Assembly: GCF_947496775.1 (NCBI RefSeq)
Contig: NZ_CANMDU010000001.1
Location: 186,001 to 250,000 of the forward strand
DNA length: 64,000 nucleotides
Source: an uncultured Maribacter sp.
GTDB lineage: Bacteria > Bacteroidota > Bacteroidia > Flavobacteriales > Flavobacteriaceae
Direction: 5' to 3'
The notes below the pieces were generated by a model. The model was not told the origin of the DNA. It saw nothing but the letters and a program-made list of their open reading frames with translations, and ran no database searches. Shown here piece after piece: positions 47,795-60,904 of this stretch (its first letter is position 1; each line of letters starts with the position of its first letter). The position numbers were made by a program, and so were the translations under genes.

Positions 47795-48114
47795 TCTTGT
47801 TTATTTATATTTAGAGATTAAGATTTTAATGTCAATAATTGGTTAATAAAAGCCTTACCACTTTCCTTAATTGTAATATTATTTCCGAAAGTTCTTCAAT
47901 ATTATACACAACAATTGGATAAACGTATTTTATCACGTATATATCCATATTATAGAATAGTGTTACCCCCTATTCTAAAAAAACCTGCCCACTAACTTGG
48001 TAGTTCCCCCGAGCTCCTCCTTAGTAAGCAAGCAACGTCTACTTATATTACATAATTCTGCAACTGTTAATGAAAATTGCAAAAATTATATAGTGTTTAA
48101 AAAGTAGTTTTATT
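47795..48114. other. 320-base intergenic region with hairpins
   Basis: It contains no convincing frame. On the minus strand it holds the G-rich terminator-like element at 47977-48029 and a second hairpin (TAGAATAG and CTATTCTA at 47953-47977, with loop GGGGTAACA on the minus strand). Confidence 0.6.
47977..48029 (-). terminator. Terminator-like hairpin with G-rich loop
   Basis: On the minus strand GCTTACTAA (48029-48021) pairs with TTAGTGGGC (47995-47987), including G-U pairs, and a run of seven T follows after AGG. The enclosed CTCGGGGGAACTA is identical over 13 bases to the loop of the element at 59818-59886. It lies 86 bases after the stop of the gene at 48115, so it may end the nuclease operon. 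Confidence 0.6.
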
Positions 48115-59708: not shown

Positions 59709-59728
59709 AATACCCACTAGTGGGTATT
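59709..59728. promoter_or_regulatory. Perfect 20-base palindrome
   Basis: AATACCCACT followed by AGTGGGTATT with no spacer. Its GC-rich core stands out in an AT-rich stretch. A site for a dimeric regulator is likely; the binder is unknown. Confidence 0.5.
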
Positions 59729-59817
59729 GTTTCCCTAAAATATGATTTTTACTTTCGCTCTCATAAAATTTACACGTAACCGATAGTTCTAAATATTCAA
59801 CATTAAATAACATATTG

Positions 59818-59886
59818 CCCTTTACTAATAAAACTTAGATAATACTCGGGGGAACTATTACTAGGAAAACAAGTAAAGGGTTTTTT
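59818..59886 (+). ncRNA. Candidate small RNA or attenuator with G-rich loop
   Basis: CCCTTTACT (59818-59826) pairs with AGTAAAGGG (59872-59880), followed by six T. Inside, CTTAG-A-TAATA pairs with TATTA-CTAGG (ten pairs, one bulge), exposing an 11-base loop CTCGGGGGAAC. No frame runs through it and no plus-strand gene ends before it, so it is not simply a gene terminator. The same 13-base motif occurs at 48001-48013 on the other strand. Confidence 0.5.
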
Positions 59887-59947: not shown

Positions 59948-60163
59948 TATCCGCTTAAACAAAAGCTAATCAATCTTTTAATAGTTCGTTACACTCATGA
60001 TACACCATTTCATGAAAATAGATTAGGTACATTTCTACCATTTAATTGAAAAAAATGGATGCACTTAATTCATATAGAGACTGTATAAAAATTAGTGGCT
60101 TTTATTTTAGTTCCCTCAAATTTTTAAAAATAGATTAACCAAAAATGCTTTATTTATAAAAAA

Positions 60164-60904
60164 ATGAAAGCGGGAGACGAAATAAAAAACCTTAGAGAAA
60201 ATATTCAAAAAACTACAGGAACTTATAGTAGTAAGCTGGAAAATTATGCAATTTTTGACCAGTTTCCATTAAATAGCAAACAATGTTTGTATGTCGCAAA
60301 TTGGAGATCCAGAGGTATTGTTTATGAAAAAGGGTTAGAAAATTTAACTGGTTATACCTTAAAAGAATTTAATACCGAAGATATAATTGCATATACCCAT
60401 CCAGAGGATAGAGAATTAGTAAAAAATATAACTACGGGGGTTGTTTCTCATGTTATTAGCACCCCCATACAAAACAAAGAATCTCATTTATTACTTTCTT
60501 TTCGATTTTTAAAGAAAGATGGCAGTTATTGCAAAATACTAGTTCAATCCTCCGTATTAGAAAGAGACGAAGAAGGGAAAATGATTAGCAACTTTTCATT
60601 ACTTACAGATATTTCTTTTATAGAAACTCATGATAGAGTGGAATGGGAATTTCACGCAAGAGAATTAGATTTAATAGCTTTTAAAAAAGTTATTTATAAC
60701 CTATATCGCGATTTCTACACAAAACGTGAAAAAGAAATCATTAACTTAATTGCAAAAAAATACACCTCAAAGGAAATAGCTAATCAACTATGCTTAAGTA
60801 AATTAACAGTACAAACCCATCGAAAAAATATTTTAAGAAAAGCTAAATCTCATTCCATTGATGACGTATTATCTTTTTGTAAAAAAAATGGAATTATAGG
60901 GTAA
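60164..60904 (+). CDS. PAS-LuxR type transcriptional regulator
   Basis: A 246-residue protein with a PAS-like domain (about 40-160: L-T-G-Y-T-L-K-E-F, Y-T-H-P-E-D-R-E, F-R-F-L-K-K-D-G-S). A LuxR helix-turn-helix follows at about 180-246 (T-K-R-E-K-E-I-I-N-L-I-A-K, S-K-L-T-V-Q-T-H-R-K-N-I). It has no receiver Asp and no membrane helix, so it senses something in the cytoplasm. Its gene faces nrfH, so it may control nitrite reduction. Confidence 0.85.
   Translation: MKAGDEIKNLRENIQKTTGTYSSKLENYAIFDQFPLNSKQCLYVANWRSRGIVYEKGLENLTGYTLKEFNTEDIIAYTHPEDRELVKNITTGVVSHVISTPIQNKESHLLLSFRFLKKDGSYCKILVQSSVLERDEEGKMISNFSLLTDISFIETHDRVEWEFHARELDLIAFKKVIYNLYRDFYTKREKEIINLIAKKYTSKEIANQLCLSKLTVQTHRKNILRKAKSHSIDDVLSFCKKNGIIG

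Follow-up and report, generated by a model that had tools for sequence, protein, structure and literature searches.

A Recurrent G-Loop Hairpin in Several Marine Flavobacterial Genera Is Probably an Undescribed Small Regulatory RNA

Results

Hairpin Elements A and B

The window, the whole stretch of 64,000 nucleotides of Maribacter DNA that was analyzed, carries on its plus strand a hairpin, element A (59818-59880), upstream of a regulator gene (60164-60904, +). The product of this gene has PAS_3 (PF08447) and GerE, or LuxR-type (PF00196), domains above the Pfam cut-off, and the gene is denoted here as PAS-LuxR. The outer stem P1 of element A (59818-59826/59872-59880) consists of the nine pairs CCCTTTACT/AGTAAAGGG, and the inner stem P2 (59834-59844/59856-59865) holds the loop CUCGGGGGAAC (59845-59855, +). 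P1 is followed by a terminator-like TTTTTT tail at 59881-59886, and with this U run the element spans 59818-59886. The minimum free energy of the fold is -17.2 kcal/mol with a z of -3.2. The region upstream of A on the same strand is gene-free, in agreement with the original prediction that A is not behind any gene.

Element B is a hairpin on the minus strand (48032-47977) whose outer stem comprises 13 contiguous pairs; it has the same loop CUCGGGGGAAC at 48013-48003 and a U run, and z is -2.1 for B alone. The loop is identical across all A and B copies. The exact 13-mer CTCGGGGGAACTA was found at 59845-59857 (+) and 48013-48001 (-). Both copies lie in loops of terminator-like hairpins that end in a T run, as had been proposed, and no third copy is present in the 3.96 Mb genome. 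The nine-pair outer stem that had been assigned to both elements holds for A but not for B. When up to two mismatches to CTCGGGGGAACTA are allowed, 3 occurrences appear in the window; the expectation from dinucleotide shuffling is 0.37, and a count of 3 is not reached in any of 100 shuffles. The earlier view that the repeat is unlikely to be due to chance is borne out. Several G-U pairs are present per stem in both A and B, and these become mismatches on the other strand; the strand with the G-rich loop is therefore the RNA strand. A stable hairpin at 47953-47977 (-) with the loop GGGGGTAACA directly follows B and had been thought similar. It is missing beside B in the other B-bearing species (L004), and the likeness of its loop to that of A and B is probably due to chance.

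In a search of the window against Rfam 15, only tmRNA reached the gathering cut-off, and at the element no match was obtained up to an E of 10. The relatives of the element gave nothing in Rfam 15 up to an E of 5. In the alignment of A and B copies, 95.9% of the cells are paired, and both-sided changes are found in 6 of 15 pairs. The covariation score is 0.633, relative to 0.326 for shuffled alignments and at most 0.233 for slid controls. For P1 in three genera the pairing is 100%, with both-sided changes in four of eight pairs. The Zobellia copy was left out of model R2 since its stem is not alignable in register with the others, and its R2 score is poor because the internal loops are missing from the Zobellia hairpin. 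The compensatory stem changes around a constant loop that the original prediction called for are thus present, and A and B are real RNA elements. It is highly improbable that the 13-mer belongs to a mobile or repeated DNA element. Two copies are found 12 kb apart, but these are the only two in the genome, their flanks and stems differ, and the compensatory changes follow RNA pairing, including G-U pairs.

Distribution within Maribacter

Relatives were assigned to Maribacter from named records, and seven other species were compared. Element A is present in four of these seven (L005, L007, L008, and L009), and thus in five species including that of the window; the further copies in related genomes that had been anticipated were accordingly found. 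In the five species, A is far better conserved than its flanks. The orthologous A always lies ~280 nt upstream of the PAS-LuxR gene on the same strand. Genomes G001 and G003 are without the PAS-LuxR gene and also without A. In G006, the PAS-LuxR gene is at a contig end, the position of A is unassembled, and B is present. As far as the contigs allow, A and the PAS-LuxR gene are co-present or co-absent in the genus. The genes upstream of A vary by species (nrfHA, a sugar transporter, a NUDIX gene, and a phage-like gene), and the conserved block therefore belongs with A and PAS-LuxR. Element B is known from two species, that of the window and one with an orthologue, L004. The 13-mer matches in G048 (L003) and G001 (L006) are within coding sequence and were dismissed as chance.

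Promoter Module Upstream of Element A

The five Maribacter species share, upstream of A, the arrangement TACCC-N6-(G/A)GGTA, exactly 23 nt, and a TAnnTTTG-like box. In the window, the 16-bp palindrome TACCCACTAGTGGGTA is at 59711-59726 (+) and the -7 box TACTTTCG is at 59750-59757 (+). The box has one mismatch to TAnnTTTG, and its spacing to the palindrome is exact in all of the orthologues. Element A lies ~90 nt behind this TACCC-N6-GGGTA palindrome promoter. The TACCC half-site resembles NarL-type sites, and the palindrome is likely a LuxR/NarL-type (GerE) operator. According to PMC9723704, the sigma-A consensus of Flavobacterium psychrophilum is TAnnTTTG at -12 to -5. With the box placed in this way, the palindrome is centered near -43 of the predicted start, the position of a class-II activator. 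A small RNA of ~125 nt (59762-59886, +) is predicted from the promoter and the terminator-like hairpin, with its start set by the -7 box and its end by the U run.

The module TACCC-N6-GGGTA + 23 nt + TAnnTTTG gave 88 matches in 60 of 397 Flavobacteriaceae genomes, relative to 2 for the reversed control. A palindromic operator is thus held at a fixed helical position upstream of a promoter box, as in class-II promoters. The consensus from the 88 sites extends to AAATACCCA-N-TA-N-TGGGTATTT. The palindrome folds, and in Zobellia it is followed by T's; its interpretation as a mere terminator was ruled out by the fixed 23-nt spacing to the -7 box. Upstream of B, the palindrome promoter was not found.

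Most of the inspected module sites are located 20-250 nt before a gene, often one with a secreted or lipoprotein-like product. The module mostly precedes other genes, and it looks like the mark of a widespread, apparently undescribed LuxR/NarL-type regulon. Elsewhere in the genome of the window, tandem duplicate 94-aa genes (MHYLYIIYSVALDKYY...) are found at C3:133274 and 133645 (L053 and L054), each flanked by the GC-rich palindrome CCCCGAAGCTTCGGGG.

The Same Tip in Other Genera

The 650 nt downstream of all 88 promoters were searched for the tip of the hairpin; the promoter pattern used to collect these sites carried no hairpin information. The tip TCGGGGG(G)AA is present at 7 of the 88 promoters relative to 0.2 expected, with a maximum of 2 in 300 shuffles. 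The seven cases represent five independent loci: Maribacter, G281 (Zobellia-like), G175, G121, and G267. Downstream of the same promoters, the five-G tip gave 0 antisense and 0 reversed-word cases. These tips sit on unrelated or compensated stems, and some are beside PAS-LuxR genes.

In Zobellia amurskyensis (L041), two palindrome promoters surround a second PAS-LuxR gene, and the second promoter is followed by the hairpin GGTCTCGTTC-TT-TTCGGGGGAA-CT-GGGCGGGACC and a T run. The stem of G175 is wholly different (GAACCGTGTC/GGCACGGTTC). An outer stem of the A type with compensatory changes appears in G121 (CCCTTCAT/ATGAAGGG) and in G256 (CCCTCCAT/GTGGAGGG). The loop form at the Zobellia, G175, G121, G267, and G256 loci is (T)TCGGGG(G)(G)AA, and the tips of G121 and G256 deviate slightly (GAAA; four Gs). 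The behavior expected of a structured RNA, covarying stems and a loop conserved in related genomes, is therefore found, with the tip constant in Maribacter, Zobellia, G175, G121, G256, and G267.

A model built from A only, with no promoter information, gave a weak match in G256 (L021) at an E of 0.0019 per genome over 397 genomes, a value that alone could be chance. A palindrome promoter was later found upstream of this match, and its small ORF is related to the ORF of G121 (51% over 35 aa). Among the A-only model matches inspected over the 397 genomes, L021 is the only real one outside the genus; the other weak matches inspected are plain terminators or chance. Two matches in viral contigs lack the hairpin design and were judged to be chance. 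At L284 and L021, related proteins of ~57 aa with the motif aYELTE.EL...IRL are encoded just upstream of the hairpin, and a Pfam search with these proteins gave no match.

It is rather unlikely that the hairpin is only an intrinsic terminator of the ordinary kind, with an apical loop favored for folding or termination efficiency and with no regulatory role. Like a terminator, nearly every copy lies at the 3' end of an apparent transcript and has a U run; some of the copies come after small ORFs. However, the two copies of the 13-mer in 3.96 Mb show that it is no general terminator loop in this genome, and the hairpin is specifically tied to one promoter class. The design is also poor for a terminator: the U run is interrupted (TTTATTT) in the A orthologues of four Maribacter species, and large internal loops part P1 from P2.

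The neighboring genes were compared across the genera. In Zobellia, G281, and G175, a PAS-LuxR gene lies directly upstream of the promoter; in 20 kb of sequence at G121 and at G267, no such gene was found. The hairpin is followed by a tRNA adenosine deaminase gene in Zobellia and G281; G175 has no close ORF, and G121 and G256 differ again. These differences between genera in the downstream gene stand against a leader attenuator or switch of PAS-LuxR, in which the transcript from the promoter would continue past the hairpin to the gene, with read-through modulated by the G loop. The constant position of A in Maribacter, always ~280 nt upstream of PAS-LuxR on the same strand, speaks for such a leader, and no conserved promoter was recognized nearer to the gene. 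A C-rich site is located in the same leader, but it is downstream of the hairpin and thus cannot act on its termination. An attenuator is on the whole improbable. The original prediction had offered either a free small RNA or an attenuator, and the former fits A, which lacks an ORF, ends in the manner of a terminator, and has a conserved promoter of its own.

Complementarity of the Loop and Candidate Targets

The C-rich site GTTCCCTC in the PAS-LuxR leader (60110-60117, +) is complementary to the loop of A. The leader motif GTTCCC(C/T) forms seven contiguous pairs with the loop in six of six genomes, and 4 of 1000 shuffled loops equal that in a test that was chosen after the site had been seen. 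This complementarity suggests a possible feedback loop on PAS-LuxR. The C-rich word complementary to the tip is not enriched downstream of the 88 promoters, and the motif GTTCCC-N0-3-AAATTT does not occur more often than its reversed control. The word TAGTTCCCC, considered as a possible target site in general, occurs at ~2 times its control, mostly in coding sequence, and the sites are heterogeneous. The intergenic TAGTTCCCC sites examined are likewise heterogeneous, with clear conservation at one only. That site is in the diverged 3' UTR of a ~32-aa membrane ORF in four A-bearing Maribacter species; L232-L235 keep TATAGTTCCCC, and it is absent in four others, including the species of the window and G006.

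Pairing is the leading candidate for the mode of action of the tip, as judged from these complementarities, and protein binding is its main rival. Under the latter, the constant tip would be a protein-binding element, and the RNA would be a decoy for, or be stabilized by, a protein that recognizes a GGGG(A) loop irrespective of the stem. The stems are unrelated and the tip does not vary, as would be the case for a protein site, and the evidence for pairing targets is thin. A GGA in a loop also resembles CsrA-type sites, although CsrA is not known to be common among Bacteroidetes. Pairing is instead favored by the site in the PAS-LuxR leader whose complementarity to the loop is conserved, and a protein site is considered somewhat unlikely.

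Other hairpins with loops complementary to the G tip were observed. At L156 (G007) and L192 (G002), a terminator hairpin with compensatory stem changes and the loop AGTTCCCC follows a TonB-receptor-like gene. In the genome of the window, a perfect 13-bp hairpin with the loop GTTCCCCCCGA immediately precedes the start codon of a response-regulator-like gene (L111, C2:292255).

Discussion

The recurrent G-loop hairpin of several marine flavobacterial genera is probably an undescribed small regulatory RNA. The explanation that we tentatively prefer, at a probability of about 0.4, is that A is part of a small RNA behind a LuxR/NarL-type class-II promoter and that the G-rich tip is its working part, most likely a pairing seed. 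The palindrome would be bound by an activator of the LuxR/NarL type, for which the product of the adjacent downstream PAS-LuxR gene is a plausible candidate, and the RNA of ~125 nt would thereby be switched on. Element A would be the 3'-terminal hairpin of this RNA, with the outer stem and the U run ending transcription. The inner hairpin would display the constant tip (U)UC-GGGG-GA(A)C as a pairing seed for C-rich mRNA sites, and the PAS-LuxR leader may itself be among the targets, resulting in feedback. In the other genera, the RNA that ends with this tip would be either non-coding or a small mRNA with an ORF of ~57 aa, again behind a promoter of the same type. Element B may be the module repeated at the end of a different transcript, where the palindrome promoter is lacking. 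Counted against this explanation are the one mismatch in the -7 box, the lack of a promoter at B, the lack of enrichment of the complementary word, the heterogeneity of the TAGTTCCCC sites, and the tip differences in G121 and G256.

A broader proposal, which is possible but doubtful, is an RNA family across the Flavobacteriaceae with an invariant G-rich tip and interchangeable stems, carried on non-coding RNAs and small mRNAs, that would supply the post-transcriptional control within a LuxR/NarL-type regulon with the fixed promoter. The hairpin provides a recognizable RNA family, unnamed in Rfam 15, with a testable working part in the GGGG tip. The promoter class is common to at least 60 of the sampled genomes, and a candidate activator is encoded beside the RNA. 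Sequenced isolates exist in the lineages with the RNA, Maribacter vaceletii and Zobellia amurskyensis among them. In the literature searched, no description of the 23-nt module in Flavobacteriaceae was found.

Little has been described of the regulatory RNAs in the Flavobacteriaceae. A literature search turned up a single large study, which reports many regulatory RNAs in F. psychrophilum and functional data for one only (PMC9723704). Rfp18 and the other Rfp sRNAs from that work are similar to A in that they come from the same bacterial family and are conserved beyond one species, and a single stem-loop is the pairing region for several predicted targets (PMC9723704). Rfp18 differs from A in that transcript and deletion data are reported and it affects metalloprotease mRNAs; the text of PMC9723704 does not report a LuxR-type promoter for it.

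Unlike the C-rich-loop sRNAs of Staphylococcus, A has a G-rich tip that would need C-rich targets and not ribosome-binding sites. RoxS is under the control of a response regulator. RsaA and RsaE/RoxS (PMC3961350 and PMC4409812) resemble A in having a constant, homopolymer-rich, unpaired stretch in a hairpin, the presumed seed, but this C-rich motif of theirs is directed at G-rich Shine-Dalgarno sites. Like the NarL/LuxR class-II promoters, the module upstream of A has a palindrome with NarL-like half-sites that keeps a fixed distance to the promoter box, and it adjoins genes for GerE-domain regulators; it differs from those promoters in being built on the Bacteroidetes TAnnTTTG box.
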